NCBI GenBank assembly: GCA_023205875.1
Contig: CP060762.1
Location: forward strand, 124,001-188,000
DNA length: 64,000 nucleotides
DNA from: Chloropicon primus
Taxonomy: Eukaryota; Chlorophyta; Chloropicophyceae; Chloropicales; Chloropicaceae
Direction of reading: 5' to 3'
This document shows positions 14,542 through 60,790 of this stretch, piece after piece. Position numbers and translations under genes: made by a program. Each line of letters opens with the position of its first letter. Positions within the stretch are counted from its first letter, which is position 1. Under the pieces are notes generated by a model. The model worked only from the letters and a program-made list of their open reading frames with translations. It was not told the DNA's origin and made no database searches.

Positions 14542-14590
14542 CATCTTCACCACGCCGCCATTCTTGTCAAGCGAGGGCTCTTTCGAAAGC
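14542..14590 (-). promoter_or_regulatory. 5'-proximal repeated element, copy upstream of PHR2-like gene
   Basis: On the minus strand it reads TTTCGAAAGAGCCCTCGC, then 18 nt, then TGGTGAAGAT. The start-to-start spacing is 36 nt, the same as in the copies near 25065, 45305, 53205, 59225 and 60765. It lies in the orientation of PHR2, about 260 bp before its ATG. It may be a core promoter module or a shared 5' leader exon ending in a GTGAAG donor. Confidence 0.55.
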
Positions 14591-14724
14591 CTGCGACACA
14601 ACGGATCGCCTCCACTTCTTCTCCACCACCTCCGCTTTCCTCCCCGTCGTCCCTCACCTTTCCTCCTTCAACAACGCAGACCAGGCGCAACAACCGAGAG
14701 ATCTGCTGCAGTGGAGTGGAAGGG

Positions 14725-16590
14725 ATGGCGTCCAAGGTGGCGACGGCAGGCGCACTGCTGAGGCAGTGGAAGGGTCTCGGGACCAAGTGCGTCCCTCGTG
14801 GGATCGGTAGGCAGCTTCCGTGGCCTCAGGGGACGTCTGGCGTGAGTCCAGGAGGAGCGAGGGACGCGTTCTGTCGAAGGTATGCCACGGCAGAGGCCAC
14901 AAGAGGGGGAAGGCATGAGGGGAGGGCTTGGGTGAAGGGGTTGTTTGCGGTGGGATCTCTGGGCGTTGGAGGGGGATTGGTGGCGGGGACGACGGTGTAC
15001 AGCAGGGATGCGAAGGGGAAGGGGGTGGAGGTCGAGTCAGGGTCGCAAGTTGTGAGTGGGATAACGAATGGCTTGGCTCGTTCTGCAGTGTTTTACTGGT
15101 ATGCCTTGCCCATCTACACCCAATACAAGTTGACGGAGTGGTGGTTCGATGGCACGCCGTTCGAGGACAGCGAGTACTACTGGGATCTCCTGCACGACAG
15201 GCACTGCGGGACCGTGGAGTACGTGTGCCTGCTCCTGAAGGGTTTCTACCTGAAAGGGGCCCAGGTGGCTTCGACGCGGGATGACTTGCTTCCGCAGCAG
15301 TACCTCGCGTTCTGCAAGAAGTTCCAGGACGAAGTTCCTACAGAACTCGCGGGGCGGGAGGAGCTGGAGAGGACCATCTGCTCCTCTCTTGGGATCAAGG
15401 ACATCCACGAGGTGTTCGAGTGCATTGATTCAACGCCCGTCGGGGCGGCGTCCATCGGGGTGGTCCACAGGGCGAAGCTCAGGGACGGCCGGGTCGTTGC
15501 GGTGAAGGTTCAGTTCCCCGACATCGAGGAGAGGTTTCGAAACGACTTGAAGACGGTGAAGAGGTTCTGCTCCTTTGCTTTGCCGTCCCACATGCCCTTC
15601 CTGGATGAGATAGAAAGGCAGTTTCTGACGGAGTTCGACTACAGGGGGGAAGCCGAGAACCTGGAGAGGATACGGAAAGACGTCTTGCCTGGGTGGAAGC
15701 GGCACGTGTACATCCCGTACGTCGTCAAGGATCTTTGCACCAAGGAGGTGATGGTGATGGAGTACCTCGAGGGCACAAACCTGTTGAAGTCCTTGGTGAA
15801 GCAGTACGAAAGGTACGCGGCCAAGCAGGGCCTGACCCTGAAGGAGCTCGCAGAGAAGAGCGCCGGCGAGGGGAAGGGGAAGGGCGGCGGAAGCAAGGCG
15901 ACCTCTCTCGCTGTGCAGGGCGCCAAGATGTACGTTGCAGAGAAAGTGGCCCAGCTGAGGGACCTTGGGCTGAACCTTCCTCGCTTCCTTTACAACCTCA
16001 CGCTCGGGTGGGTGCCGGGGTGGGCTGTCCCGTACAGGTGGTCTGAGCGGCCCATCAACCTCGCCAGGGTGCTGGACATTCTGATGCAAGTCCACGCCCA
16101 CGAGATATTCCGGCACGGCTTCTTTAACGCTGACCCCCATCCGGGGAACATCATGCTCCTGAAGGACGGCAGGATCGGCCTGATCGATTACGGGCAAGTG
16201 AAGCAGCTCAGCCTGGAGAAGAGGGTCGAGTACGCCAAGCTCGTGGTCTACCTCGCGAAGGACAAGAGGAAATCCGCGGTTTTGCAGGCGACGGAGGGCA
16301 TGGGGCTCGTGACCAAGAACATGAACCACCAGATCATCTACAGGACCCTCGCCTTCTTTCACGACAGGGACACGGACGACGTCACCGGGGGCAAGAACAT
16401 CCAGCAGTTCATGGACTGGTGCAACGCGGAGGATCCCATCCTCGACCTGGACGACGACTACGTTCTGGTCGGGAGGGTCTCCCTGCTTCTCAGGGGTCTT
16501 GGAAACGCCTTCAACTTGAAGTTGAGGGTGACGCAGTACTGGAGGTCCGAGGCGGAGAGGTTGCTGAGGTCCGCCGGGGTGCGGGCGTGA
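14725..16590 (+). CDS. ABC1/ADCK (UbiB-family) atypical kinase, probably mitochondrial
   Basis: 621 residues. An Arg-rich presequence-like N-terminus (RQWKGLGTKCVPRGIGRQL) precedes a hydrophobic glycine-rich stretch near residue 75. The UbiB-family motifs follow in order. The KxGQ helix appears as YLKGAQVASTRDDLLP near residue 177, with Ala in place of the motif Gly. The Ala-rich nucleotide loop is PVGAASIGVVHRA, the lysine strand is VVAVKVQFP, the catalytic region is FFNADPHPGNIML near 470, and the metal site is LIDYGQ near 489. Family members support coenzyme Q synthesis or lipid homeostasis in mitochondria and plastids. KxAQ variants are known in some eukaryotic subgroups, so the change need not mean loss of function. 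A charged Gly/Lys insert (about 385-400) is lineage-specific. The first ATG in frame is at 14725. Confidence 0.88.
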   Translation: MASKVATAGALLRQWKGLGTKCVPRGIGRQLPWPQGTSGVSPGGARDAFCRRYATAEATRGGRHEGRAWVKGLFAVGSLGVGGGLVAGTTVYSRDAKGKGVEVESGSQVVSGITNGLARSAVFYWYALPIYTQYKLTEWWFDGTPFEDSEYYWDLLHDRHCGTVEYVCLLLKGFYLKGAQVASTRDDLLPQQYLAFCKKFQDEVPTELAGREELERTICSSLGIKDIHEVFECIDSTPVGAASIGVVHRAKLRDGRVVAVKVQFPDIEERFRNDLKTVKRFCSFALPSHMPFLDEIERQFLTEFDYRGEAENLERIRKDVLPGWKRHVYIPYVVKDLCTKEVMVMEYLEGTNLLKSLVKQYERYAAKQGLTLKELAEKSAGEGKGKGGGSKATSLAVQGAKMYVAEKVAQLRDLGLNLPRFLYNLTLGWVPGWAVPYRWSERPINLARVLDILMQVHAHEIFRHGFFNADPHPGNIMLLKDGRIGLIDYGQVKQLSLEKRVEYAKLVVYLAKDKRKSAVLQATEGMGLVTKNMNHQIIYRTLAFFHDRDTDDVTGGKNIQQFMDWCNAEDPILDLDDDYVLVGRVSLLLRGLGNAFNLKLRVTQYWRSEAERLLRSAGVRA

Positions 16591-16653
16591 CCGGTTGTAA
16601 CGGCTCTCAAAGTGGTGGTGGTGCGCCACAATAAGAATGAATTGATTGCCAAA

Positions 16654-16698
<45 letters not shown>

Positions 16699-17417
16699 AT
16701 ATAGCTATATCTAATCTCTATCTATCTGAATTCTACAAGGATGTGACTGTGAAGGTAGGCCTAAAGTTCCCTCGCCATGCGGTGCAAGGAAAAGCAATGC
16801 AAGGAGCCCTCCCCTTTGTCCGTCCCTCTCCCCGCTTTCAGTGCAGGACCTCAATCCAAGCGATGCGGGCCTTTTCTGCCCAAGAACTTCTTTTTTCGGC
16901 TCTTCTTCCCCCTCCCTCTGGTCAAAGGAGAACTGTGGTCCCGCGGTGTAAGGCTGCAATGCCGTAGGATTCCATACGGCCTTAGGGTTCTTCTTCCAAG
17001 CCGAACAAGACGACGGCTGGGGCGGAGAGAACAAGGAGACAGGAGAGGATTGTCGAGGCAAGGGAGAGGTCATTGCATTCGCATCCTCTTGCCCTCGACT
17101 TGTCCTCCTGGACGCTGCAGACCTAGGTCGTGTTGTGGAGGCGCGCGCGCAAGTGTGTCTTCGTCATTATTCTATCTGAAAACAAGGATAGACTGGAGAG
17201 GGAGAGACACACCTTCATCTTCATCTTCGTCACTGGAGTGGATTTGGGTTGAGTGGCAGAGCAGAGCTTGAACCATTGGCTGGCCGCGTCCTTGGTGTCC
17301 TAGACTCGCTTGATTATTGTCCAACCATTAGCCAGCAGCCAACAAGAACAAGTCTTTGCCATACCACACATACATACACATACCTCCGAGAGTCTAGTCT
17401 AGTCTAGTGTTGTCAAG
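16591..17417. other. Intergenic with CT/GT microsatellite, upstream of PKG
   Basis: 827 bp between two plus-strand genes. A (CT)n run followed by (GT)n and ATATAGC lies at about 16658-16705, in the presumed 3'UTR of the ABC1 kinase. A telo-box-like TTAGGGTT is near 16984. The tail before the PKG ATG contains CATACACATAC-type A/C runs and repeated CTAGTCTAGT. No gene or RNA is seen. Confidence 0.55.
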
Positions 17418-20400
17418 ATGGCCGAGCGAGCAATCATGGCCCTGCTGGACCCGCGCAGGAACTTCAAGTCGGACTTCGACCAGCAGCTTGTGCAGGAGAC
17501 GGTCGACCCCATCATTGCGGGATACATCCGCAAGAAGGGGTTGAAGCCTGCCTTGCGTTCGATACTTCGCATCACAACCGACCAGAACTTTCGTGAGGTT
17601 TGGGCCAAAGACTTCGAGCACATGCTTCAGAAGGAGGGAGACCTGACAAGGAAGGAGCTGAAGGAGAAGGTGGCGAGTGGGGTCGATCTCGAGCTGCTGC
17701 GCAGCCGGGGAGCGACCGAGCACGAGCTCGAGGTTGCTGGTGTTCCACCGGGAAAGCTGGACGAGGAGAAGATGATCGAGGAGGATAACTACGAGGAGTT
17801 CCTGAAGAACATCTTCTTGCAGGCGGACAAGAGGATGAACGACGTGAACCAGAGGGAAGTCGCGAGTGCTCTGAATGACTTGAACAAACTCACGAATTAC
17901 ATGAACATCTTGGTCAAGGACACGACGGACTACATGTCCAAGACCAACGACCTCATGCAGAACACCGGGGAGGCCGAGAGGTACGCAGGCACGACGAAGG
18001 GAAGCCTGGGAAGTGGCAGAAACGTTCATCAGATCAATCTGAAGGACGTGTCTCCAGACGGAGCCACCATGGACCTCACCGCGAGCAGGCTGGCCAGTCC
18101 CATGGATTCTTATACCTCCCAGAACGACAGGGACAGGAGACTCAGTAACGCGTACGAGCAGAGGAGGCTGAGCAACGCTTACGAACAGAGGAGGCTGAGC
18201 AACGCTTACGAGCAGAGGAGGCTGAGCAACGCGTATGAGAACAGAAGGCTCAGTAATGCCATGGAAGGCAAGACCGTTGCTTCAAGAGGGGTGGGCTCTC
18301 AGATGGAGGGAAATATGAGCACGATCAATATGACTCAGTTCCAACTTCCAGGGATCAACGCGGCGGCGAACAACATCAAGTTCTGCAAGCTTTTGCTTCA
18401 GTCCGGTGTAAAGTGTTTCTGCTTCTCGCGAAAGAATCCTGCCAAGGCGCCAACGGAGTACTGTCTGTACAGGGACGGCGACCAGCTTTTCTGGAAGCTG
18501 AAGAACAAGGGCAAGAAGACTTACCTCAACGTGGTGAGCGCGGCGGAGGGTTTGCCTCTTTGGTTCACGGACGGCGACATCTTGAAGAACTCGTTCATCA
18601 AGGCAAAGTTCTTGGGCAAGAACTTCTTCGAGAGGTGCTCCCTCCAGATCAACATGCAGGACCTGAGGAAGAAGGTCGCGGTGGAGTGCGTGTTGACCTT
18701 CGAGGCGGACGTGATTGCCGAAAAGCTTGCGTTCTACTTGAACACCGACGCCCTCGACGATAGCATGACGAAGATCAGGGGCACCAAGAGGGCCTCCATC
18801 ATCATGCAGACAAGGAGCAGAGCGAAGACGCTTCAGAACCAGTCCCAGCAAGGCAACTTCATCTCCCAGAACGAGGTCAAGAAGCAGGACAAGGCGTCCA
18901 ACGCGTTCTACACCAACACTGCGGCGAGGAAGAAGCAGGAGAAGACGAAGAAGGAGGCAGAGTTCCTTCTCAACGCCATGTCCAAGTGCCCCGTCTTCAA
19001 CGGCATCAGCGACGAGTTGAAGAACGAGGTCGTGCAGGTGGCCAGGAAGACGAACATTGCGGAGGGCATGATCGTGTGCCAGAAAGGAAACTTTGCGAGC
19101 AACTTCTACATTGTGGAAGAAGGCTCTTTGCTGGCTTATCTGAGCGAGATGGTGGACGAGTCCTCTATACCGGACATCGAGTACAAGAAGGAGGATTACT
19201 TTGGAGAGTGCTCCCTGATATTCAAGTCACCAAATCTGCACCACGTGATTGCGGATGGAGACTGTGTTCTGTGGGCCCTGGATCAAGAGACGTTCAAGAA
19301 AGTTGTCTCGGGCAACGCTGACCTTCAGAAGTCCCTTGACACCCTGCTTGAGGTCGCCATCTTCAACGGGCTGGACGATGCAATGTTTGCGAACATTATT
19401 CTGGACTTCGAGGTGCAAAAATTCGGGCCAGACGAAGTCATCGTGGCCATGGACTCCAAAACTCCGCGCTTTTACGTCCTGCAGGGCGGCACCGTGGATG
19501 TTGCTGGCAACTGGTACGGGAAGAGTGAGACGTCCGATAGGGTGGAAAAGAGTCTCAACATACCTGGTCAGTTCTTTGGTGACTTTGAGCTCTGTTTTGA
19601 CTTGAATATGGCGAGGACGTACAAAGCTGGGGCCAAGGGGGCTACATTGCTTACTCTGAGCAGGCAAAGGTTCGGCGAGCTCTCCGACTTCATCGTCGAG
19701 GTCTCTGAGAGCAACTTGAAGAGGCAGGTCCTGCACAGTCTTCCTACATTCGCAACACTTGATGACTTTGAGGTCATGGATGTCATAGACTCGTTTGAGG
19801 TGGAGACGGTTAAGAAGGGAGAGTTGATCATTAAGAAGGGAGATATTGGTGACAAGTTCTACTTCATCAAGACGGGAGAATGCGTCGTGATGGACAAGGA
19901 CAAGGATGGAAACCTGAAGATTTTGACCAAGATCATTGGCCACGCGTCTTTCGGTGAGCTGGCTCTGCTCAGTGACGACCCAAGGAGTGCTTACGTTGCT
20001 GCGGACACGGATGTGGAGCTCTACTCCTTGACGAGGGAGGCCTTCAGGCAGCTTGTGGACACAGCCAACAAGCAGGGCTCGAAGAGCAAGACTCTGAGCA
20101 TCATTTCCAACATTGACCTTCTCAACGCTCTTTCCGAGAACGATTTCAGTGTCCTCACGGATGCCTTGAACGTCGAAAACTTTTCGGAGGGCGACAGGAT
20201 CATCAAGAGCGGGGATATTAACGACAAATTGTTCATCGTTTCCAAGGGAGAGCTCCTGCTGACAAGGGACCAAGAGTCATTCACTGAGAGGGTCCGCTTG
20301 CTTCCCGGTAACCACTTCGGGGAAAGGGCGCTGATGCAGGCGGAGCACTGCTTTTACAACGTCACCGCAACTCGTGTGACGGAGCTCCTGACGCTGTCGA

Positions 20401-21482
20401 GGCACGTCTTCGAGCAGTACTGCGGTTCTCTTGCCGGCCTTCTTCAGACTGAGCTGAAGAAGACTGAGGAGGAGGGCAAGCTGCTCAGGGCTGGCATCGA
20501 CGACTTCATCGACAAGGGAATTATCGGTAGAGGCGCCTTCGGTACGGTGAGACTGGTGAAGAGCAAGGATTCCAACAAATACTATGCCCTCAAGTATCTC
20601 ATCAAGGACAACATCGTCAAGAAGCAGCAGCAGCGTCACTTGAAGCAGGAGATCAGCATTATGTGCATGCTGGAGCACGCCATGATCATCAGCCTGTGGA
20701 AGAAGTGGCAGGACAAGAAGTACATTTACCTGCTGACGGAGATTTGCACGGGTGGAGAGCTCTTCATGGAGATCAAGAAGTCCAAGGGTTTCGCAGAGGA
20801 CCGGGCAAAGTTTTACGCCGCCTGCGTCGCTTCCATTCTCATCGAGTTGAGAAAGAAGGAAGTCGTCTTCCGAGACTTGAAGCCCGAGAACATCCTTATC
20901 TCCGGCGATGGTTACCTCAAACTGATCGATTTCGGCTTTGGAAAGGTCCTGGGCAAGAACAAGAAGACGTTCTCTCTTTGCGGTACCCCCGACTACGTCG
21001 CCCCTGAGATTCTGCTGAATCAGGGATACAACCACTCGGTGGACACCTGGGCTTTGGGTGTCTTGGTTTACGAGATGGTTGCCAACGAGACCCCGTTCAA
21101 GAGCTCGGGCGGGGCCAAGGGAATTCTCAAGAACATTCTGAACAAGAAGCTTCAGTTCCCCAAGGACAAGTTTTCCGGTGTTTCCAAGGAGTGCATTTCC
21201 TTCATGTCGGAGTGCTTGAAGAAGGAGCCCATGCACCGCCTGGGTTACAAGGATGCCAGGGAACTCAAGTCCCATCCGTGGTTCCAGGAGTACGGAAAGC
21301 ACGGCTGGAACGCCCTGGAGAGGAAGCTCATCCGGCCGCCGTACGTGCCAAACGACGTGAACCCCGAGAAGATCCCAACGAAGGAGCCCAAGGAGGGCGA
21401 GCTCGAACCACCTCCAGACGTTCATGATTATGAGATCGATTCCATTTTCGCAGACTTCACTGCGATGAACGAGGTGGCCTGA
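17418..21482 (+). CDS. Large cGMP-dependent protein kinase (PKG-like, four CNB domains, AGC kinase)
   Basis: A single-exon protein of 1354 residues. Residues 1-235 are an unknown helical region. Residues 240-284 are five tandem nine-residue RRLSNAYEQ-type repeats, each holding an RRxS kinase consensus. Residues about 318-440 look like a PH-type domain (CFSRKNPAKAPTEYCLYRDG, then LFWKLKNKGK). Four cyclic-nucleotide-binding domains follow at about 524-632, 646-757, 775-884 and 893-1005. Only the third has the canonical phosphate-binding cassette FGELALLSDDPRSA. The others have FGECSLI, FGDFELC and FGERALM without the Arg. The kinase (about 1031-1287) has GRGAFG, YYALKYL, an FRDLKPEN loop (Phe for Tyr/His), DFG and TFSLCGTPDYVAPE, then an AGC C-tail ending in a SIFADF-type motif. 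Apicomplexan and algal PKGs share the four-domain plan but are shorter. Confidence 0.92.
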   Translation: MAERAIMALLDPRRNFKSDFDQQLVQETVDPIIAGYIRKKGLKPALRSILRITTDQNFREVWAKDFEHMLQKEGDLTRKELKEKVASGVDLELLRSRGATEHELEVAGVPPGKLDEEKMIEEDNYEEFLKNIFLQADKRMNDVNQREVASALNDLNKLTNYMNILVKDTTDYMSKTNDLMQNTGEAERYAGTTKGSLGSGRNVHQINLKDVSPDGATMDLTASRLASPMDSYTSQNDRDRRLSNAYEQRRLSNAYEQRRLSNAYEQRRLSNAYENRRLSNAMEGKTVASRGVGSQMEGNMSTINMTQFQLPGINAAANNIKFCKLLLQSGVKCFCFSRKNPAKAPTEYCLYRDGDQLFWKLKNKGKKTYLNVVSAAEGLPLWFTDGDILKNSFIKAKFLGKNFFERCSLQINMQDLRKKVAVECVLTFEADVIAEKLAFYLNTDALDDSMTKIRGTKRASIIMQTRSRAKTLQNQSQQGNFISQNEVKKQDKASNAFYTNTAARKKQEKTKKEAEFLLNAMSKCPVFNGISDELKNEVVQVARKTNIAEGMIVCQKGNFASNFYIVEEGSLLAYLSEMVDESSIPDIEYKKEDYFGECSLIFKSPNLHHVIADGDCVLWALDQETFKKVVSGNADLQKSLDTLLEVAIFNGLDDAMFANIILDFEVQKFGPDEVIVAMDSKTPRFYVLQGGTVDVAGNWYGKSETSDRVEKSLNIPGQFFGDFELCFDLNMARTYKAGAKGATLLTLSRQRFGELSDFIVEVSESNLKRQVLHSLPTFATLDDFEVMDVIDSFEVETVKKGELIIKKGDIGDKFYFIKTGECVVMDKDKDGNLKILTKIIGHASFGELALLSDDPRSAYVAADTDVELYSLTREAFRQLVDTANKQGSKSKTLSIISNIDLLNALSENDFSVLTDALNVENFSEGDRIIKSGDINDKLFIVSKGELLLTRDQESFTERVRLLPGNHFGERALMQAEHCFYNVTATRVTELLTLSRHVFEQYCGSLAGLLQTELKKTEEEGKLLRAGIDDFIDKGIIGRGAFGTVRLVKSKDSNKYYALKYLIKDNIVKKQQQRHLKQEISIMCMLEHAMIISLWKKWQDKKYIYLLTEICTGGELFMEIKKSKGFAEDRAKFYAACVASILIELRKKEVVFRDLKPENILISGDGYLKLIDFGFGKVLGKNKKTFSLCGTPDYVAPEILLNQGYNHSVDTWALGVLVYEMVANETPFKSSGGAKGILKNILNKKLQFPKDKFSGVSKECISFMSECLKKEPMHRLGYKDARELKSHPWFQEYGKHGWNALERKLIRPPYVPNDVNPEKIPTKEPKEGELEPPPDVHDYEIDSIFADFTAMNEVA
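18135..18269 (+). repeat. 27-bp coding minisatellite encoding RRLSNAYEQ repeats
   Basis: Five tandem 27-bp units, the last degenerate (RRLSNAMEG), lie inside the PKG-like gene. The third-position differences between units (AGA/AGG, CTC/CTG, AGT/AGC) show that the array is not brand new and that the protein motif is kept. Confidence 0.92.
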
Positions 21483-22046
21483 TTCGCGGCGCAACTCTCA
21501 GATTTTATTAAACACCTTCTTACACTTCAAATTGTAATTACAAACCTTCCTATCAACGACTCCCAATCCCACCCACTCGGTCTTCCCCTCCTCCTTCCTT
21601 CAGAGCAGTCGACGAGAGTGCTCTCTCTGTCTCTCTTTCCTCGAGGGGACATGGGATCCTTGGGTAGAAAAGCGGTGGCAGTGAGATCACAACCTTTCTC
21701 TCAAACCCGTCCCCCCCCTTCTCCCCACCCTCCTTTCCCTCCATTGCAGCCCCCCCCATGTCCCCCTCCCTTGGCCTGCCTGATCAGTGATGATCCATGA
21801 CCTTCTTTCCCGGTTACCCCATCAAGCGCGAGTTCTTTGGAAAGAGGGAGAGGAGCACGAATTCATTGTCCTTCGACCTCCCACCGTCCCTCTCCTTCCC
21901 CGCCATCATCATCATCATCATCATCACCATCATCATCACCATCTTCATCACCTCCCTCCATTAATCGAGCGAGCATTAGCAATCAGCGGTTTCGCCTGAG
22001 ATTAGCGCAGCGGAGGCGGAGGAGAGGGAAGGCGAAGGCGAAGGCG
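21483..22046. other. Intergenic with CAT repeat, upstream of ASCC2-like gene
   Basis: 564 bp. It holds C-rich and T/C-rich tracts (21700-21775) and an imperfect (CAT)n run at about 21903-21950. The frame of the next gene stays open back to about 21837, but that segment would be His/Ser/Pro low complexity, so it is treated as 5'UTR. Confidence 0.55.
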
Positions 22047-24014: not shown

Positions 24015-24061
24015 TTTCATTCTCTTCGCAAGAGCAGTTTTGTTATTTATATGGGTCTCCT

Positions 24062-24958: not shown

Positions 24959-25040
24959 CTTTCCCTCTCTCTCTCTCTCTCCCTCACCGATGCTTCATCG
25001 CTGCAAACTGTCCAACAAACAAACACAATCCTCAGTCAAA

Positions 25041-25089
25041 ACATCCTCACCAGGGCGCCATTTGTTTCGATTAAAGGCTCTTTCGAAAG
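25041..25089 (-). promoter_or_regulatory. 5'-proximal repeated element, copy upstream of DsbA-like gene
   Basis: The minus strand reads TTTCGAAAGAGCC, diverges in the middle, then AAATGGCGCCC and TGGTGAGGAT, with the same 36-nt start-to-start spacing as other copies. It shares ATGGCG just before the tail with the PHR2 copy. It lies about 85 bp before the DsbA-like ATG, in the same orientation, within the 507-bp divergent region that also serves TOP3B. Confidence 0.55.
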
Positions 25090-25465
25090 ACAAAGAGTCA
25101 ATCTCGACATCTACAACGACTTTGACCTCTCCACTCCTTGCCCTTGTCGTCCACTGATCCCTCAAAGCTCACCTTGTGTGCCTTTCCAGACCCCAGACCA
25201 AGGCTCTTCTTGTCCTTAGGATGAATGCACCAGTTGCAGGAGGAGGAGGAGGAGGGTGAAGTTGTCGTAAGGAAGGCGGTCAAGGAGGCAGTGAGGGAGG
25301 CTAGAGTGAGAATTCACTTGAAGAATCGAGCATCGGAGTCACGAATAACATCTCCACACCTTTTTTTCCCTCGTTCAAAGCCACAGGGGGTACCAAATTG
25401 CTGAATCAGGTGGAGGAGAACAGCGAGAGAGCCAAGGGGAGGGCGTTGCATAGAGGTGTTCGGGG

Positions 25466-44905: not shown

Positions 44906-45282
44906 CAACAACACCAAAACCAAAACCAAAACCACCAGTTTGCAATGACAATGCAAACTCCAGGACCAAAAAAACGAATCCCTTCCACTCGGAACCGTTT
45001 CCTCTTCTCGCTGCGTTCGAATGAGCCAAGTCCCTGGACACGAAGGTCACTCCCTTACTAAGGTCGCGCTCCTCGGTACTCGGTCTCTCTCTCTCTCTCT
45101 CTTCTGATCGCCTTCGTCTGCAAAGCGCCGAGCGATCGATCTTCTGATCACCTGAGGGCATTGATCGCCGATCGATCGGCACACGAGGAGAGGAGAGGAA
45201 GGGGAGGAGAGGGGCGGAATAGGAGGCGATCGAGGAGGCTGGGCCGCGTGGGAAGGCGACAGATCGATAGAGTGTCTGTTTT

Positions 45283-45330
45283 TCTTTCGTTCGAGTGTTC
45301 TCTGGAAGGAAACGACGATCTGGTGAGGAA
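45283..45330 (+). promoter_or_regulatory. 5'-proximal repeated element, copy upstream of iron-type alcohol dehydrogenase
   Basis: TTTCGTTCGAGTGTTCTC is followed by GGAAACGACG and TGGTGAGGA, with 36 nt between the head and tail starts, as in the other copies. The AAACGAC part matches the copies before the ankyrin genes. It ends about 20 bp before the dehydrogenase ATG and has the same orientation. The rest of the 442-bp divergent spacer to GrpE has a (CT)n patch near 45085. Confidence 0.5.
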
Positions 45331-46643: not shown

Positions 46644-46812
46644 GCTTGGCGCGACCACGTTGTGGGAAGAAAATTGGTAGGACAAGAGCGTCAGGGGAAT
46701 CAGAATTCAGAGGCCAAACAACTGCGGGTGAGCTTAATGAGTGACGATGTACTACAACTGCATTTCTTATTCCAAGAAAAAGTGCGCGGGGAAACGACGG
46801 CGCCATGAGAGA

Positions 46813-48685: not shown

Positions 48686-49031
48686 CTTATCTTCTCACAC
48701 CACCAAAGGCTTTGGCCCTCTCTCCCTCGCTCGTCGTCCTCGTCCTCGTGTTCGCCGAGTCCTCGCTCCTTTCTGAAAAACGAAACAACACGAAACAACG
48801 AAACGAAACGAAACGAAACGCTTGAGGGAGCGTTTCAAAAAAAGAATGTCGTGGACCGAAAAGAAAACGGCCAAGATGGAGGAAGCGAGGCATGGAGGAT
48901 TGCGATGGGATGGGGAGGTGGGAGTAAAGAAAAGAAAATGCCCATGATCACCAGACTAAGATGTGGGGTGCCGATGGATGGGGGGCGAAGAGGACGGGGG
49001 CACGACTCGAAATTGTATAAATACATCATCA
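48686..49031. other. Intergenic, upstream of ankyrin-MCAT gene
   Basis: 346 bp between two minus-strand genes. It contains four or five CGAAA units near 48780-48820 and, on the minus strand, GAAACGCTCCCTCAAGCG near 48820-48838. The motif AAACGCTCCCTCGA also occurs near 12780 and 43058. The left part is A/T-richer and fits the FMO 3'UTR. No gene is seen. Confidence 0.5.
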
Positions 49032-50691: not shown

Positions 50692-50795
50692 CCTCAGCAG
50701 CAGCTGGACGGGGGGGAATGGAATTCAATCAATTCGTTTCCTTGAGGATGCAGGGGCAAGAGAGACGCGTTCAAGGATGATGGCTGGACAAGCCT

Positions 50796-50847
50796 CACCA
50801 GGACAGGAGAAAACCTCTCCTGTTGAGAATCTTCTCCTGTCCTGGTG
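50796..50847. repeat. Perfect 16-bp inverted repeat (hairpin) between IPT and FMO genes
   Basis: Arms CACCAGGACAGGAGAA (50796-50811) and TTCTCCTGTCCTGGTG (50832-50847) pair perfectly across a 20-nt loop. It lies in the 229-bp spacer, upstream of FMO and downstream of the tRNA isopentenyltransferase stop. Next to it is an A/T-rich CATATCATATCATTATCATATC run (in part) near 50890-50915. Confidence 0.9.
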
Positions 50848-50920
50848 GGACTAAAACCTAAAGGAACATCGGGGAGGGCAATCCTAATATCATATCATAT
50901 CATTATCATATCATACAAGA

Positions 50921-52387: not shown

Positions 52388-52392
52388 CCTCT

Positions 52393-52863
52393 TCACGTCT
52401 CGCGAAGGTGATGCCTCACGAGTTTGTGCGTGTTCTCAAAGTAAAAGTCGCCCTCGAACTCCTTGCCCGCCAACAGCAGCGGGTACCAGTACTCATCGTC
52501 CGCCCACATCTTCTGGTACGGGATATCCTCCACAGCAAACCACTGTGGCTTCATCTCTTCCGTCTCCTTGGGCTCCTTGGGCTCCAAGTTCAGGCCAGTC
52601 GTGAACACGTGGACTTCCCAAGGCACAGGCTTGTCGTCAAAGTGAAACCGAAGCAGCCCCTTCCTCACACACTCCTTGGCAGTCACACCGGCCTCCTCCT
52701 CCAGCTCCCTCCTCGCGGCTGCCTCCACTGATTCGTCGCTTGGCTCCACCTTTCCACCGAAGCCGTTGTAGTACCCTTCCCCGAAGCCTCGCTTCTTCAA
52801 CCCGAGCAGCACTCGCTTCCCATCCGTGGGGATCAAGAGCGTCAGCACCTTGGCCTTGGCCAT
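52393..52863 (-). CDS. MTH1-like Nudix hydrolase (8-oxo-dGTP diphosphatase)
   Basis: 156 residues. The sequence follows human MTH1 closely: VLLGLKKRGFGEGYYNGFGG, the Nudix box GGKVEPSDESVEAAARRELE then EEAGV, WEVHVFTTGL, and EEMKPQWFAVEDIPYQKMWA followed by DDEYWYPLLL. It keeps the W/D pair that recognises 8-oxopurine in the MWxDD(E/S)YWFP block. It would cleanse oxidised nucleotides from the cytosol, mitochondrion or plastid. Starts at the ATG at 52863. Its TGA is separated from the ATG of the tRNA isopentenyltransferase gene by 5 nt, the tightest junction in the window. Confidence 0.95.
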   Translation of the reverse strand: MAKAKVLTLLIPTDGKRVLLGLKKRGFGEGYYNGFGGKVEPSDESVEAAARRELEEEAGVTAKECVRKGLLRFHFDDKPVPWEVHVFTTGLNLEPKEPKETEEMKPQWFAVEDIPYQKMWADDEYWYPLLLAGKEFEGDFYFENTHKLVRHHLRET

Positions 52864-53180
52864 CAACTCACCACTGACGTCTCAATCGCGTTCCCGTGCG
52901 ATGTTCCTAGGTCAAGTGAGGTATCAATCGAAAGCCCGCGAGACGTACTTTCGTTTGATCGACTCGTCCTTCCCTCTCTCGCCTCGACCTGTTCGTCAGA
53001 AAGGTAAAGCGACCTCCCCCTCGATCGGTCCCACAGCGCGCCCGAGACGAAGAGAAGACATCCCCGTGATCGCTGCCGCTGCGGAGAAGTCGAGGGGAGG
53101 GGACGGAAAACCGCAAGGAGAGGGCGAGAAGGGAGGAGAGGGCGAGGATAGGGTCGACCATCAGAAGCGTCTTGTCGCCA

Positions 53181-53231
53181 GCTTTCGAAAGAGCCCTCGC
53201 TCGAAAGGAGTAACGCTCTGGCGAGGATTTC
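53181..53231 (+). promoter_or_regulatory. 5'-proximal repeated element, copy upstream of HERP
   Basis: TTTCGAAAGAGCCCTCGC is followed by TCGAAAGGAG and TGGCGAGGAT, with 36 nt between the starts. The head is identical to the PHR2 copy. The tail has TGGCGA instead of TGGTGA, so a splice-donor reading would fail in this copy. It ends 35 bp before the HERP ATG, in the same orientation. Confidence 0.55.
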
Positions 53232-53265
53232 AGACAGTGAGAGAGAGAGAGAGAGAGAGAGGAGC

Positions 53266-54930: not shown

Positions 54931-55023
54931 TCGCGATTAGATGGGCTATTTTGTGTTTGCTTCATAAAATGCTTTCGTTTTTAGAAAAATTCTTATATTA
55001 TTTTGGCTTTGCATTTACCTTCC

Positions 55024-56979
55024 TCACTTCCCCTTGTTCCCCAGCTCCGTGAGTTGCTGCAAGAACTCGCAAGGTGCTAGCATCTCCGTCGCACCATACA
55101 CTACATTACACTTTGGCTGGACCCTTTGCGACATCTCTTGCAGGGAGTGGTACTCCAGGTAGTTCCCCCCACCGATGATGCACACCATGACGTCTCTGTA
55201 GGCGGCAGACTTGGAGCTTGCTGGACTCGTGCCCCTGGGCAACTTTGGATCAAAGTAGAGATATTTCTCCTGCTCTTCGCCACTTCCCTTGGACTCGACA
55301 AGAGCTTGGACAGCCCTCGTGACGGCAAAGGTCTGGCCCTGGCTCATCAAGTTCTTCATGCCTTTGGCCATGACGTCCAGGCCCTTGGACACGAATTTGT
55401 CCGCGAAATCCAGAATGTTTCCCTGCGCCCCAGAAGAACCCGCGCTGCCCGGCATGGCAAAGCTCCTCTGAGCTCCCGTCAGGCTCAAGTTTCTGAGCCT
55501 CTTCAGGTAATTCAGGGCCTCGAGATCCGCTCCAGCTCCCTTGAGGCACTGGTCGATTTCCTCAAAGTCTGCCGCAGAGGGCAAGGTCTCGCACGTAAGC
55601 AGCCAGGTGGCCACCAACCTGAGCTTGTCGGAAAGAAGTCCTTTTGGAGTTGTGATGACCTTGAGGACCGCGCTCTTGTCCGCTTTCCCAGCGAAGAGCT
55701 CCTCTTCCACAGCAACGAAGTTGTCGATTTGCCTGTCTTTGATCTCCTTCAGAAGAGCAGTGGCAATGTTCGTGTGCTTGTCTATCACCCTCTTCCTCTC
55801 GGTGAGCTCCGGCAGTGAGCTCACGGCATTCATCAAGTTCTTCGTGTTTGCTTGGAGGTTGTCGTCCTCGTCCTCTCCCGCCCCAGAGGTGTGCGTATTA
55901 ATGGCAGCCATGTCCTTCTTGTATTTATTGAGTTGCTCTTCCACCTCCTCTGCAACTTTGGGGAACGGCCTGCCTCCATTCTCCTCCCAGAAAAAGTCTC
56001 CCGGGCCGACATCATAACTCTTCTTGGATCCAGTCGACCCACCGCTCGCAGGGTTCTCGCTCGCCACGGCGGTCCGGCCAAGCTTGAGGCCCAGGACGTC
56101 GTGAACCATCGCGTGATACGTCCAGCAGTGTTGGATCTGAGGCGTCAGATCAAAATTTCTGTCGAACAGGACCAAGAGCGGTCTCTGGAAGCTGCCGCCC
56201 TTCATGGTCGACGAGCTAAATGCGTTGCTCCTCTGCTCAAGGTGCTTTCGGATGTACCCGTCCAGAGCCCGAGCCACGTGCTCTGCCGCCCCACCCCGTT
56301 GGCACCTGATAATAGGAACTGAGCCCCAGGTCGCTATCGCACAAAAGAGGCCGTCTATGATGTCCCCTATCGCTTTCTCGATCTCCACGTCCTTGGCCGA
56401 GGGGTCATTCAGGGCAACATAGGCTTTCGGGATCATCAGGGAGAACAGGTCCTTCTCGAGAGCAACGAACGCCAAGTTCTGGTCAAACAGCTTGGCAACC
56501 CTTCCCAAACAGCGTTGCTTCGTCAGTCCTGACGCCAAGTCTTGCAGCGACTTGTCCGAAAGCGGGGCGCAGAAATTGAGGTGGGCCACATCGTACGTCC
56601 CAACGGCGAGGTCTTGCGTCACCCTGCTCACGTTGACGTCCGTAGCCCTCACAAAGTAAACGGCCGGCACGTCAGGCACGTTTTGCCTCTCGCTGTCGAT
56701 CAAAAGGTACAGCGTCACGCCGCACTTTCTTAGGTCGTTCAACCTCAGCAGGGGCGTGATCACGTCCCTCGTGAAGCTGTCCAGGACCAGCACCTTGTAC
56801 GACGAACCGCTCTGCCCGCCTCCCTGCCCCCCGGAGCTCGCCCCTCCTCTCCCCTTCCCCTTCCCAGGTGATGCCAAACCCAATGGAGTCGACGAAGGTC
56901 CGCCGCTTTCGTTGAACGACAAAAGGCGGACAAGGGCGTCGATCTGCCGCTTCCGGAGCGACGTCCCTGACGACGCCAT
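55024..56979 (-). CDS. SLY1: SLY1 / SCFD1 Sec1-Munc18 family protein
   Basis: 651 residues from the ATG at 56979 (MASSGTSLRKRQIDALVRLL). SM-family blocks: YKVLVLDSFTRDVITPLLRL, LYLLIDSERQNVPDVPAVYF, LFDQNLAFVALEKDLFSLMI, PLLVLFDRNFDLTPQIQHCW, then TYHAMVHDVLGL and a C-terminal CIIGGGNYLEYHSLQEMSQR with VYGATEMLAPCEFLQQLTEL. The GGGNY-EY and YG(S/A)TE endings are SLY1 traits. SLY1 binds syntaxin-5/Ufe1 type SNAREs in ER-Golgi transport. A Gly/Ser-rich insert (about 42-62) is local. An in-frame ATG at 57123 would add 48 residues of Ser/Glu/Arg-rich sequence and is judged unlikely. Convergent with HERP. Confidence 0.94.
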   Translation of the reverse strand: MASSGTSLRKRQIDALVRLLSFNESGGPSSTPLGLASPGKGKGRGGASSGGQGGGQSGSSYKVLVLDSFTRDVITPLLRLNDLRKCGVTLYLLIDSERQNVPDVPAVYFVRATDVNVSRVTQDLAVGTYDVAHLNFCAPLSDKSLQDLASGLTKQRCLGRVAKLFDQNLAFVALEKDLFSLMIPKAYVALNDPSAKDVEIEKAIGDIIDGLFCAIATWGSVPIIRCQRGGAAEHVARALDGYIRKHLEQRSNAFSSSTMKGGSFQRPLLVLFDRNFDLTPQIQHCWTYHAMVHDVLGLKLGRTAVASENPASGGSTGSKKSYDVGPGDFFWEENGGRPFPKVAEEVEEQLNKYKKDMAAINTHTSGAGEDEDDNLQANTKNLMNAVSSLPELTERKRVIDKHTNIATALLKEIKDRQIDNFVAVEEELFAGKADKSAVLKVITTPKGLLSDKLRLVATWLLTCETLPSAADFEEIDQCLKGAGADLEALNYLKRLRNLSLTGAQRSFAMPGSAGSSGAQGNILDFADKFVSKGLDVMAKGMKNLMSQGQTFAVTRAVQALVESKGSGEEQEKYLYFDPKLPRGTSPASSKSAAYRDVMVCIIGGGNYLEYHSLQEMSQRVQPKCNVVYGATEMLAPCEFLQQLTELGNKGK

Positions 56980-57072
56980 GGCCTCCCTCACCGCCTCACT
57001 CTCCCTCTCCCTTCGCGCCGCTAAAACCCTTTCCTTTCCAGAGCCCTCGCTCCCCCGCCACGCGCTCCTGTC

Positions 57073-57414
57073 ATGGACTGGCTCAGGAGAGGAGGAGGAG
57101 GAGGCGCAAAGGATGATGGACATCGATGGCGATTGAGGACGGATGGCAAGCTTGCCAGGAGAAAGGATGTTGCTGGTGCAAAGATCGTCTCTTCACCTTT
57201 CGAAAGAGGTCCCGCATTGGAGACTGGGACTCACTCTGTCAATGGACTGGCTCTGCAGGAGGAGAGAAGGAGGAGAGGAGGAGGAGGCGCAAAGGATGGT
57301 GGACATCGATGGCGATTGAGGACGGATGGCAAGCTTGCCAGGAGAAAGGATGTTGCTGGTGCAAAGATCGTCTCTTCACCTTTCGAAAGAGGTCCCGCAT
57401 TGGAGACTGGGACT
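57073..57414. repeat. Imperfect tandem duplication upstream of SLY1
   Basis: Copy 1 (57073-57241) and copy 2 (57242-57414) both begin ATGGACTGGCTC and both hold ATCGATGGCGATTGAGGAC, GGATGTTGCTGGTGC and CACCTTTCGAAAGAGGTC. They differ mainly by a purine-rich insertion of about 14 bp in copy 2. The duplication lies in the 508-bp spacer between SLY1 and the F-box/ankyrin gene and duplicates a TTTCGAAAG palindrome. Confidence 0.9.
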
Positions 57415-57487
57415 CTTCTAGCTTTTCTTTTCTGTGGAGGATCGATCGCGGCGTCCGGCAAGTTCTCGAGAACGCAGAAGCAATGTA

Positions 57488-58705
57488 CTACAAGAACTGG
57501 GAAATCCACTGCGAGACGTGCGTGTGGCCGTTCTTGTCCGCGCAGAACGCGCACGTGTACTTGTCCCAAGGGCACCCTGCCCTCGTTGTCCATTGCAACA
57601 ACTCAAGGTGGCCGTACTGTCGTCGAACAAGAGTGGAGGGAGAGAGAGAGAGAGAGAGAGAGAGTCAGCAACTCGTCCAGCTCAAGTCCTGACAGAGGGT
57701 TCAACTTACCATCGCAGCATACTCTGCAGTATCCTCGTCCCAGGGACAAGGCGGATCCTGGCTTCGAAGCCACTGCAGCACGTCAAGGTGGCCCCCTTTG
57801 GCTGCGCAAAACGAAGTTCTAGTGTTGAGGATCTCCAACTCGGGCATATCAACCCAGAGATTCGCCCTGTGCTCCTCCTCCAGGTGCGACACTAGCCACT
57901 TCAGTGTTTCCAGGTGTCCTCCTTCAGCGGCATAGCTGCAGACCTTCCTGTCCGTCCAAGGGCACCCATTCTCCCTGGCCCACTTCAAGCACTTGAGGTG
58001 TCCGCCACGTGCAGCCCGGTGGCAAACTCTCTCTCCCCAAGGGCACCCATTCTCCCTGGCCCACTTGAGGACCTCCAGGCGACCCTCCGCAGCTGCACCA
58101 GCGCAAGTGTACTCGTCCCAAGCGCAGCCAGCCTTACTCCTCAGCCATTTCAGCACCTCGATGTGGCCGCCCTTGGCGGCGTTCGCACACGCCCATGGCT
58201 CCCACACTCTACTTCTGACGCTGGCTCTGCCGTACAACGATCCATAGAGGTCCTTGGACCTCTGCTCCCAAAGCTGGAGGATCGAGAGGTAGCCACGGCT
58301 GGCCGAACCGTTGATGAGCAAGCTCCTCACTTTCAGCTCCCTCTTCACGTCCTCCTCCTCCTCCTCCTCGTCGTCGTCCTCACAATCGTCGTGAACGTCC
58401 ATCTCCATGCCCTCCATCAAGCGTTTCAGGCTCGAGGTGTGCCAGGCAGTGTGCCACGCGAACCAGTCCTCCGACAGGGTGTCGACCGAGTTGTGGAGGT
58501 AAACTTTCATTCTCGTTCTCAGCGGTCTTTTGGATTGGGCTTGAACGCTTCTGAATCTCTTGCAAGCCATTGAAAACGCCAACACGTCGTTCCCGTGGAC
58601 ATCATCCAGTATCCTCCCCCAAACGTGGGTCGGCAAGTCCACCAAGGTTCCCCTCCCTCCCTCCTCCTCCCTTCCTCCTTCACTCCCTCGCCTTCTCTTC
58701 GTCAT
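57488..58705 (-). CDS. F-box-like ankyrin-repeat protein
   Basis: Exon 1 (58705-57710) and exon 2 (57616-57488) join in phase 0 around a 93-nt GTAAGT...CGACAG intron to give 374 residues. An F-box-like N-terminus (LVDLPTHVWGRILDD, then FSMACKRFRSV) is followed by an acidic run (CEDDDEEEEEEDVK). About seven ankyrin-like repeats of the algal type follow, such as GGHIEVLKWLRSKAGCAWDE, GRLEVLKWARENGCPWGE and GGHLDVLQWLRSQDPPCPW. Exon 2 supplies the last units (YGHLELLQWTTRAGCPWDK) and the ending HVSQWISQFL. F-box/ankyrin proteins are candidate ubiquitin-ligase adaptors. It is a distant paralogue of the two plus-strand genes to the right. The open frame continues upstream through antisense of a truncated paralogue and is not used. 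Confidence 0.78.
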
Positions 58706-58766
58706 CCTCCTGGACGGGAGGAGGGAGGGAAGGTCGACCAAGTGGAGAGAATGCCGAGTCCTCAAG

Positions 58767-58941
58767 CCACTTGTACGACTGTGACCTGATGCACCTCGCC
58801 GCTTTCCAGGGCAGCAATCAGGTGCTGCAGTGGTTGCGAAGCCAGGACCCGCCTTGCCCTTGGATCCCAAACAGGTGCAGAATTGTGGCGAAGCACCGCA
58901 ATCACCAGCACGCCGTCGATTGGATCAATGCCAATATTTAA
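58767..58941 (+). pseudogene. Truncated copy of the F-box/ankyrin gene family
   Basis: A 175-bp remnant joins the family's first ankyrin segment (LYDCDLMHLAAFQGS) directly to a last repeat (VLQWLRSQDPPCPW) and the C-terminus HAVDWINANI, with its stop. The F-box half and all middle repeats are missing. It is followed by the same 3' flank as the intact gene at 59478-60293. It is a leftover of unequal crossing-over or deletion in the tandem cluster. Confidence 0.8.
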
Positions 58942-59257
58942 CCAAGAACAATGTCTCACGACGAACCTGTCATCGACCTTCGCTTTCCTTCCTGGTTCCT
59001 CCTCCTTCCTCTTTCTCCTCTCCTCCTCTCTTTGTTTCTTTCTCTCGGTGGATTTTCTCCCTTCCGCTGAACCATCATAACGGCCCGAGGCCACGAGGGG
59101 CCGAACGAGGAGCACGAGAGAGAAACGGAGAGGACGGGAGAGCGCGGAGGAGGAAGAGAGAGAAGAGGCGGACAGGAAAGAAGGAAGCGTCGTCTCGTGC
59201 TCTTTCGAACGAGCTCTCGCGCGAAAGAAACGACCCAGTGGTGAGGATCTGGCGACG
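58939..59257 (+). repeat. Duplicated 3'-flank/promoter segment, copy 1
   Basis: From the TAA of the truncated ankyrin copy to the first 5' element, this about 320-bp segment appears identical to 60291-60609, at a constant offset of 1352 bp with no indel that I can see. Confidence 0.9.
59199..59250 (+). promoter_or_regulatory. 5'-proximal repeated element, distal copy upstream of ankyrin gene 1
   Basis: TTTCGAACGAGCTCTCGC, then GCGAAAGAAACGACCCAG, then TGGTGAGGAT, 36 nt between starts. About 230 bp before the ATG at 59478. Identical to the copy at 60551-60602. Confidence 0.55.
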
Positions 59258-59390
59258 ACACGAAACGAGAGAGAGAGGAAACGAAAGGACGATCAAGGCG
59301 TAGATCACCGAGGAGGGGAGGCGACGACGAGGGCGGGAGTTTGTGCCGGAGGGTTTTCGAGTGATAGACGAGCGGAAGGAGTGTCTTTTC

Positions 59391-59442
59391 CTCATTCGAA
59401 CGAGCCCTCGCGCGCCACAAGAAGGACCCGGTGGTGGGGATC
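59391..59442 (+). promoter_or_regulatory. 5'-proximal repeated element, proximal copy upstream of ankyrin gene 1
   Basis: ATTCGAACGAGCCCTCGC, then about 20 nt including ACAAGAAGGACCC, then TGGTGGGGAT. Spacing is 38 nt here, the only clear exception. About 40 bp before the ATG. Confidence 0.5.
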
Positions 59443-59477
59443 ATCTGAGGAGCACGGGCACACGGACGGACGTGATC

Positions 59478-60293
59478 ATGATGGAGGAGACGAGGGAGAG
59501 CAGAAGGCAGAGGAGGAAGGGCAGGGACGCGTTGGATGTGCTGCCGGAGTGGGCGTGGCTCCTGGTCTTGAAGCAGCTGGATGAGTACGACCACCTCGCT
59601 TTTGGTTTGACCTGCAGGGCGTTCCTCGTCGTGGGGAGGATTACGGCGAGGGCGATGGCGAACCCTTCTGACCACCCTCAGAAGGAAACGCAGAAGGGTC
59701 TTCCTCTGAGGACGAACTTGGCACACGAAACGTTGTTCAAGCAGATGCCTCGCTTCAGTTTGAGTTGGTTCCAGTGGGTGTCTCGGTCGTTCAAAAGGAG
59801 GAAGGGAGCACCGAAAGAGTTGAGATATGGCGAGTACTACGACCACTTGTACGACTGTGACCTGATGTACCTCGCCGCTTTCCAGGGCAGCAAGAAGGTG
59901 ATGGAGTGGTTGGCGAGCCAAGGGATCTCTTTTGGTATCGAGCGCTATTATCATGGAGTGGTAGCAGTAGCAACTGGAGGAGCCGCTGCAGGAGGTCATA
60001 TTGAGATATTGGAATGGCTGGGGAGCGAGGGGTGCGAGTTTGATAACTTGACTTGTTCTTCTGCAGCTCTTGGAGGTCACCTTGACGTTCTGAAGTGGCT
60101 CCGAAGCCAGGATCCGCCTTGCCCTTGGGACTGGAGGACTTGTGAATATGCAGCTGAAGGAGGTCACCTTGAGGTTCTGCAGTGGGCTCGAAGCCAGGAC
60201 CCGCCTTGCCGTTGGGACCCAATTGAATGCATGGTGTGGGCGGAGAGCAGGAAAGACCAGCACGCCATCGAATGGATCAATGCCAATATTTAA
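59478..60293 (+). CDS. F-box-like ankyrin-repeat protein, short paralogue
   Basis: 271 residues from the ATG at 59478 (MMEETRESRRQRRKGRD). An F-box-like helix pair (ALDVLPEWAWLLVLKQLDEY, then AFGLTCRAFLVV) is followed by a family-specific block (LFKQMPRFSLSWFQWVSRSF). Ankyrin units begin at LYDCDLMYLAAFQGSKKVME. Three later units have the form GGHLDVLKWLRSQDPPCPW. The C-terminus is HAIEWINANI. It shares promoter, N-terminus and repeat type with the gene at 60813, which has many more repeats. It ends in the same WINANI as the truncated copy at 58767-58941. Likely a substrate-binding adaptor; partner unknown. Confidence 0.8.
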   Translation: MMEETRESRRQRRKGRDALDVLPEWAWLLVLKQLDEYDHLAFGLTCRAFLVVGRITARAMANPSDHPQKETQKGLPLRTNLAHETLFKQMPRFSLSWFQWVSRSFKRRKGAPKELRYGEYYDHLYDCDLMYLAAFQGSKKVMEWLASQGISFGIERYYHGVVAVATGGAAAGGHIEILEWLGSEGCEFDNLTCSSAALGGHLDVLKWLRSQDPPCPWDWRTCEYAAEGGHLEVLQWARSQDPPCRWDPIECMVWAESRKDQHAIEWINANI

Positions 60294-60609
60294 CCAAGAA
60301 CAATGTCTCACGACGAACCTGTCATCGACCTTCGCTTTCCTTCCTGGTTCCTCCTCCTTCCTCTTTCTCCTCTCCTCCTCTCTTTGTTTCTTTCTCTCGG
60401 TGGATTTTCTCCCTTCCGCTGAACCATCATAACGGCCCGAGGCCACGAGGGGCCGAACGAGGAGCACGAGAGAGAAACGGAGAGGACGGGAGAGCGCGGA
60501 GGAGGAAGAGAGAGAAGAGGCGGACAGGAAAGAAGGAAGCGTCGTCTCGTGCTCTTTCGAACGAGCTCTCGCGCGAAAGAAACGACCCAGTGGTGAGGAT
60601 CTGGCGACA
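60291..60609 (+). repeat. Duplicated 3'-flank/promoter segment, copy 2
   Basis: Second copy of the segment at 58939-59257 (offset 1352 bp). The coding regions on either side are far less alike than this non-coding piece. Confidence 0.9.
60551..60602 (+). promoter_or_regulatory. 5'-proximal repeated element, distal copy upstream of ankyrin gene 2
   Basis: TTTCGAACGAGCTCTCGC to TGGTGAGGAT with 36-nt spacing. Part of the identical duplicated segment, about 210 bp before the ATG at 60813. Confidence 0.55.
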
Positions 60610-60738
60610 CGAAACACGAAAAAGAAAGGCAGAAAGAAATCGAGGAGTAGATCACCGAGGAAGGGAGGCGACGACGAGGGCGGGATTTTGTGCCGGAGGT
60701 TTCTCTCGAGTGATAGACGAGCGGAAGGAGTGTCTCTT

Positions 60739-60790
60739 GCTCTTTCGAGCGAGCCCTCGCGCGACAAGAACGACCCATTGGTGAGGATCA
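60739..60790 (+). promoter_or_regulatory. 5'-proximal repeated element, proximal copy upstream of ankyrin gene 2
   Basis: TTTCGAGCGAGCCCTCGC, then GCGACAAGAACGACCCAT, then TGGTGAGGAT, 36-nt spacing. The GACAAGAA part matches the PHR2 copy 46 kb away. About 25 bp before the ATG. Confidence 0.6.

Follow-up and report, generated by a model that had tools for sequence, protein, structure and literature searches.

An oriented DNA element of ~65 nucleotides (nt) recurs upstream of unrelated genes in the tiny marine green alga Chloropicon primus, and we have analyzed it both in a 64,000-nt stretch of DNA (contig 9, 124001-188000; hereafter the window) and across the genome. Strain RCC138 is reported to have a compact nuclear genome of 17,584,162 bases in 20 contigs, the longest of 1,855,637 bases, with 8,627 protein-coding genes; for C. 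roscoffensis an average nucleotide identity of ~78% is given (PMC12301720). An ALG8-like protein encoded on contig 1 is 100% identical to a C. primus record. The element is probably a long core-promoter module that lies at or beside the transcription start and that can be repeated in tandem at nucleosome-like spacing, with the start site, the binding factor and the phasing of nucleosomes all being predicted from sequence patterns. A preliminary description of the window had reported eight copies, upstream of genes for a PHR2-like photolyase, a DsbA-like protein, an iron-type alcohol dehydrogenase (ADH), a HERP-like protein and two ankyrin proteins, the last two with two copies each, and had proposed either a core promoter or a mobile 5’ leader exon with GTGAGG as the splice donor at its end. 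All eight copies were recovered at the same positions and on the same strands. The core promoter is the best-supported reading, given the orientation of the copies, their closeness to start codons, their outward-facing pairs and more than 1,000 matches in front of unrelated genes.

Architecture and copy number of the element

We number the columns of the element from its TTTCG anchor (column 0), and TGG serves as the anchor of the tail. The overall consensus is GAA...TCTC..G..CTTTCG...GA..C.T...GAGGAT, with at least two subclasses. Across 120 unique copies (effective number ~84), conservation begins with GAA (columns -19 to -17), extends as far as column 45 or so and peaks at columns -2 to 10 (TCTTTCGAANGAG). 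The module consists of the GAA box, a TCTC..G motif, the strongest block CTTTCG...GA (columns -1 to 9) and a partly palindromic middle, while the GAGGAT tail is part of class 1 only. The core, CTTTCGAANGAGCCCTCGCTCGAAAG, forms an imperfect palindrome of 26 base pairs (bp) centered on column 11.5. Class 2, which was reached through several weaker-scoring copies, carries CTTTC[GC]NNNGA[CT]ACCT in place of the class-1 GAGCC[CG]T. Its consensus, based on 55 sequences that include overlapping loci and a few non-element sequences, has GAA and TCTC..G..CTTTCG...GA..CCT..G.T.GA in common with class 1, has TTTGGCG at its end and is mostly without the GAGGAT tail. The downstream part is not kept in all members, the tail being weak or missing in class 2 and loose in copies found through the head alone, and one copy (L111) has a class-1 tail on a class-2 middle. 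The exact 36-nt spacing of head and tail that had been proposed for seven of the eight window copies stands for those seven, with the tail at column 36, and the copy at ~59394 has a 2-nt insertion; however, the rule is valid for the strict class only.

A genome-wide search with the strict pattern TTTCG-N2..4-GAG-N24..26-TGGTGA gave 140 matches and 1 in the reversed control. Total length was 42 in 98 of the 100 strict matches listed (of 140), though 40-44 was permitted, and the spacing between upstream and downstream parts is strict, with 2 nt added in some ankyrin copies. The pattern TCG-N2..4-GAG-N24..26-TGGTGAGG gave 132 matches compared to 9 in the control, a class-2 pattern gave 346 compared to 0, and two joint patterns gave 1,205 compared to 10 (reversed control) and 1,410 compared to 54. 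Each joint pattern catches 4 of the 13 copies that we find in the window, so the genome likely holds a few thousand copies, very roughly 4,000, an estimate that is based on the 13 copies of a window that may exceed the average and that carries a large uncertainty.

Scoring models separated the copies clearly from controls. For the class-1 model, 120 sequences scored above 30 bits and 15 between 2 and 21, and none in 296 kb of reversed control exceeded 2 bits. A general model, when retrained at a low threshold, took on a symmetric form that matched the reverse strand of known copies, and it was replaced by models anchored on TCTC..G..CTTTC. A model from other loci found 13 window copies above 20 bits, with a best score of 11.6 in 350 kb of reversed sequence; because two of its training loci (L005 and L015) overlap the ankyrin region, the four ankyrin copies are not independent of it, while the other nine are. 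In leave-one-out scoring of the earlier eight copies, for which 30 Markov-shuffled windows scored with the full model gave a best value of 13.7, and with the ankyrin copies held out as a group, the PHR2, DsbA, ADH and HERP copies scored 45, 50, 32 and 45, three ankyrin copies scored 41-48, and the 59394 copy scored -0.3, owing to its insertion. Neither random placement or orientation nor a shuffled-level number of hits was found when these were checked. We also considered whether the element is shared with giant viruses, which we reject: the strict pattern had 5 matches in viral contigs, with unlike middles and all below 2 bits, and the exact general pattern had 0 matches there.

Position relative to genes and spacing of copies

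Most copies face a gene. In the sampled 3-kb loci and the window, ankyrin family included, an open reading frame (ORF) of at least 120 amino acids (aa) begins within 400 nt on the same strand for 60 of 70 unique copies, compared to 47% of random positions. In the reverse direction 33 of 70 copies have such an ORF, as would follow from a large number of divergent genes. We could assign a main ATG to 130 of 175 non-redundant copies, most commonly 60-100 nt from column 0 (48 of the 130). A second group of 20 copies has its ATG at 250-300 nt, and 11 of these have a further copy in between; similarly, the ATG lies at 240-300 nt in 14 of the 18 copies that have a further copy 150-215 nt downstream. 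At locus L040 the first ATG of an alanyl-tRNA synthetase ORF falls at column 46, and at L034, L092, L093 and L105 the ATGs of shorter ORFs (66-124 aa) fall at columns 38-45. If these are true start codons, transcription would begin no further downstream than the middle of the element. Eight of 10 sampled downstream genes have Pfam families, all of them different (WD40, SDR, alanyl-tRNA synthetase, PhoD phosphatase, Myb/SWIB, calcineurin-type phosphatase, RF-1 and C2CD3). The preliminary description had held that every copy shares the orientation of its gene, and this is true of 9 of the 13 window copies, each with an assigned gene downstream on its own strand (PHR2, DsbA, ADH, HERP, a NUDIX gene and the two ankyrin genes with two copies each), whereas the copies at 7295+ and 21843- break the rule, pointing at the 3’ ends of kinase genes.

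Neighboring copies keep characteristic distances. Among the sampled loci, 38 of 41 same-strand pairs 60-1000 nt apart lie at 170-199 nt, with a mean of 182.4 and a standard deviation (sd) of 6.3. For non-ankyrin pairs the count is 23 of 26 (mean 179.5), where locus L013 is counted as non-ankyrin and may be ankyrin-type and where pairs inside a triple are not independent; the remaining three lie at 230, 352 and 355 nt, the last two being the outer distances of triples. Tandem pairs closer than 1 kb among the 311 matches listed gave a similar picture, with 25 of 27 at 170-194 nt; the other two lie at 230 and 369 nt, and the latter spans a whole triple (175 + 194). Triple arrays with steps of 173-194 nt are found at L156 (201, 379, 556), L149 (201, 380, 553) and C5 (132198, 132373, 132567). 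Tandem pairs occur at unrelated genes. Both flanks had z < 2.5 in 27 of 36 pairs and one flank had z > 2.5 in the other 9, and in 22 of the 36 the identity between the two elements did not exceed that of random copies (30 of 52, sd 5.7) by more than 1 sd. Some pairs appear to be recent duplications (57198/57381 in the window and L156), most are not evidently so, and further pairs may be old duplications with decayed flanks. An expanded ankyrin-repeat family (for example L001, L003, L006, L009 and window 58700-62700) has a double element before the ATG, with the two copies 177-199 nt apart and a 2-nt insertion in several of the second copies.

Opposite-strand neighbors are just as regular. Non-overlapping neighbors within 1.5 kb in the sampled loci gave 42 distances, all of them divergent; the count leaves out overlaps of -60 to 0 nt, where the palindrome matches itself. 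Twenty-eight of these distances lie at 222-306 nt, 25 of them at 236-290, and 7 lie at 414-455, which may represent the primary distance plus one tandem step. A divergent partner is present at 230-290 nt for 29% of 136 copies and at 410-470 nt for 10% of 99, compared to 0-5% in the other bins between 130 and 530 nt. No convergent pair lies within 1.5 kb in the sampled loci or among the 311 matches listed, which contain 10 divergent pairs at that range and six convergent pairs at 1.6-2.6 kb. On the gene strand, purines make up 63-78% of the upstream flank (bins -120 to -20), which becomes pyrimidine-rich beyond -160, as expected for two mirror-image promoters placed back to back.

We propose that a sequence-specific factor or initiation complex would bind the module as one unit, which would account for its fixed internal spacing, and that the module would set the transcription start at or near itself, most commonly with the start codon 60-100 nt further on. 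A dimeric factor would be compatible with the partial palindrome in the core. A step of ~182 bp is what a nucleosome repeat would give, and two or three modules per gene in a ~182-nt register could each occupy a successive gap between phased nucleosomes. More tentatively, a single module might write both the start site and the chromatin grid, with starts placed in linkers, a ~182-bp ruler, a ~260-bp bidirectional unit and a lineage-specific factor; we put this forward as a possibility that falls short of an even chance. If it is true, outward pairs ~260 bp apart would be the usual bidirectional promoter unit across much of the genome. The core-promoter reading itself would place a long, information-rich promoter module in an ecologically important marine green lineage, the Chloropicophyceae. 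With more than 1,000 copies of exact geometry, start-site choice and nucleosome placement could be tested against one sequence. The element could also be used to mark gene starts in Chloropicon and to supply promoters for expression work.

Several observations weigh against a core-promoter module. The summed information of class 1, ~65 bits (a figure inflated by the choice of copies), is far above what a core promoter needs. No main ATG was found for 45 of the 175 non-redundant copies, and in 15 of 112 copies with no detected downstream copy the ATG is 220-300 nt away; such distant ATGs could reflect introns, genuinely long leaders or a weak copy that escaped detection. Depletion of upstream ATGs is weak (4.0 vs 5.2 per kb). 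Four of the 13 window copies precede no assigned gene, including the two that face kinase 3’ ends. No CpG or A/T periodicity near 182 nt was found downstream, where periodograms peak at ~196 and 164-168. Furthermore, on chromosomes 1, 2, 3 and 5, the four compared, the matches listed are unevenly spread, which would not be expected of a plain promoter. The largest-gap test gave P ≤ 0.006 for the long gaps on these four, with tandem copies treated as independent, and the stretches with few or no listed matches are C1 0.09-0.69 Mb, C2 0.94-1.77 Mb, C3 0.77-1.23 Mb and the right part of C5. Five 4-kb stretches from copy-poor regions contained no copy (best score 7.4 bits), and thus many genes manage without the element. 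The copy-poor stretches sampled have ordinary composition and genes, and each of these four chromosomes has one part in which copies are more closely packed.

Alternative explanations and known systems

The element could instead be the binding site of one specific transcription factor, serving a regulon or opening chromatin, and not a core promoter. Under this model a dimer would recognize CTTTCGANNGAG, the half-palindrome, make the chromatin accessible and set the phase of the nucleosomes, with polymerase starting close by. The imperfect palindrome of the core fits such a site, two copies per gene at nucleosome-scale spacing suit a pioneer-type factor, and the TCTCGCG of class 2 resembles the vertebrate CGCG/BANP element TCTCGCGAGA, a CpG-containing sequence that is described as driving bidirectional transcription from TATA-less promoters (PMC6192621). 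However, the conserved block exceeds the palindrome and is strongly oriented, the right arm is less conserved than the left and degenerate in class 2, and no common function links the eight sampled genes (of 10) that have a Pfam family. The CGCG/BANP element itself, as described, is 10 bp long, palindromic and vertebrate, whereas the Chloropicon element matches it in part only and is oriented (PMC6192621). We consider a specific factor site an unlikely reading of the element.

Still less probable, in our judgment, is a mobile element, or what is left of one, that is dispersed in the genome, brings a promoter with it and, like introners, inserts into the linkers between nucleosomes. The introner elements of Micromonas are nucleosome-sized insertions that form introns inside genes, and they share with our element a nucleosome-scale spacing and a small green-algal genome. 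High information, the existence of subclasses, uneven chromosomal spread and nucleosome-like tandem spacing would all suit a mobile origin. Yet the Chloropicon element lies before genes of housekeeping type, is independent of splice sites and is oriented with genes (60 of 70 copies face one, and no convergent pairs lie within 1.5 kb), and any mobility is hypothetical. Its variation is focused on certain columns, unlike uniform decay, and its edges fade, with no sharp ends.

A conserved upstream ORF, encoding the peptide S-K-E-P-S-L-E-R-N-D-A-L-V-R-I, is highly improbable. In 84 unique strict copies third positions appear least conserved in one frame, which has 1 stop compared to 4 and 35 in the others. 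The synonymous fraction is 0.239 vs 0.223 (sd 0.006) in column shuffles, and a stop at column 47 is common to 25 copies in the peptide frame. However, another frame shares a stop more often (50 copies, column 39), 18 of 173 non-redundant copies have internal stops, the phase differences are not significant (P 0.15 in class 1 and 0.49 in class 2) and, in copies that were not picked via the tail, the second base of the presumed V codon is variable. An in-frame upstream ATG precedes the stop in just 24 of the 173 (32 of 173 in the next frame), and the upstream ORF is largely refuted.

We give as little credence to a structured RNA of the 5’ untranslated region. The palindrome would fold into a stem of 7-8 bp, changes in its right arm are often compatible with G-U pairing, and the outermost pair of class 2 (-2/25) is double-compensated in 5 of 63 copies. 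In both classes, though, Watson-Crick pairing is near the expectation for independent columns, and over 9 stem pairs (-1 to 5, 8 and 9) in 100 class-1 copies there are 2 double-compensated cells. Rfam has no family at threshold over the element. A hairpin is largely refuted by this lack of covariation. Finally, the mobile 5’ leader exon is equally improbable: although the class-1 tail is often GGTGAGGAT, a good donor, the donor is not conserved, GT occupying columns 38-39 in 49 of 100 class-1 and 8 of 63 class-2 copies (57 of 163 together), and a donor at column 38 would make the ATGs at columns 38-46 of the five loci named above (L040, L034, L092, L093 and L105) intronic.

To our knowledge, little is known of core promoters beyond animals, fungi, land plants and a few parasites, and as far as we have seen no known system has the length, sequence or spacing of the core-promoter module proposed here. 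Animal promoters built on the initiator (Inr), motif ten element (MTE), downstream promoter element (DPE) and TCT motif are likewise oriented, strictly spaced internally, near the start and TATA-less. Compared to what we take to be the consensus sequences of these motifs, class-1 columns 19-30 look like MTE and CTCTTTC looks like the TCT initiator. In contrast to Inr-MTE-DPE promoters, the Chloropicon element is ~65 bp long, holds far more information, is green-algal and recurs in tandem at ~182 nt, with a start that is predicted; class 2 is without the MTE-like and tail parts.

The oomycete INR+FPR supra-motif, together with DPEP, offers a likeness of another kind, that of a compound core promoter which is specific to a lineage, serves a minority of its genes and has an added downstream element: combined INR+FPR is reported in ~13% of genes, with TATA undetected (Roy et al. 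2013, PMC3599244). INR+FPR is 16-19 nt long, differs in sequence and has mapped starts, and the abstract of that study gives no tandem or divergent spacing (PMC3599244). The preliminary description knew of no described element of this form. Our reading of the literature agrees, since no description was found in open-access sources; subscription journals were mostly outside its scope, so absence is unproven. A term search of the main text of two Chloropicon genome papers did not find the word ‘promoter’ (PMC12301720, PMC6731263).

Copies in the window

Four class-1 copies precede single genes. Those of the PHR2-like photolyase gene (521-aa ORF, Pfam DNA_photolyase) and the DsbA-like gene (Pfam DSBA/Thioredoxin_4) are on the minus strand, at 14543..14607 (column 0 at 14588, ATG 128 nt away, 46.7 bits) and 25043..25107 (column 0 at 25088, ATG at +130, 44.6 bits). 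The ADH gene (Pfam Fe-ADH) has its plus-strand element at 45266..45330 (column 0 at 45285, ATG at +63, 34.7 bits). A degenerate copy that had been suspected before GrpE scored -21 at 45022 and could not be upheld; this place is 263 nt from the ADH element, near the usual divergent distance. The element of the HERP-like ubiquitin-domain gene (Pfam ubiquitin) is on the plus strand at 53164..53228 (column 0 at 53183, ATG at +83, 54.7 bits).

The ankyrin genes each carry two class-1 copies on the plus strand. Before ankyrin gene 1 the upstream copy lies at 59184..59248 (column 0 at 59203, 63.5 bits) and the downstream copy, with its 2-nt insertion, at 59375..59441 (column 0 at 59394, ATG at +84, 44.2 bits), a step of 191 nt. 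Before ankyrin gene 2 the step is 188 nt, from 60536..60600 (column 0 at 60555, 63.5 bits) to 60724..60788 (column 0 at 60743, ATG at +70, 59.3 bits).

Five copies come in addition to the earlier eight (7295+, 21843-, 52933-, 57198+ and 57381+). The one with an assigned gene is a class-2 element on the minus strand at 52888..52952 (column 0 at 52933, 53.1 bits), which precedes a NUDIX-domain gene (52393-52863, ATG at +70) and is the divergent partner of the HERP element, 250 nt apart. Two plus-strand copies form a pair, at 57179..57243 (column 0 at 57198) and, 183 nt later, at 57362..57426 (column 0 at 57381), each with 33.2 bits. We regard them as a recent duplication because their cores are identical and their upstream flanks similar. 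Downstream of the pair there are only small unassigned ORFs, and on the opposite strand a Sec1-family gene has its ATG 75 nt from the first copy. The other two copies are a class-2-like element at 7276..7340 on the plus strand (column 0 at 7295, 33.3 bits) and a weak class-1-like element at 21798..21862 on the minus strand (column 0 at 21843, 23.9 bits). The former points at the 3’ end of a kinase gene on the minus strand, the latter at that of a kinase gene on the plus strand. Possibly they mark antisense or noncoding transcripts, or they are relics or false hits.

Elsewhere in the genome, L112, L120, L122, L123, L127, L128 and L129, on contigs 1-4, have closely similar class-2 promoters and gene starts with MRRPTRQ-like frames, and look like a repeated gene family. 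Just past ankyrin gene 2, the window contains a 5S rRNA gene on the minus strand (62538-62656; Rfam RF00001, 101 bits).

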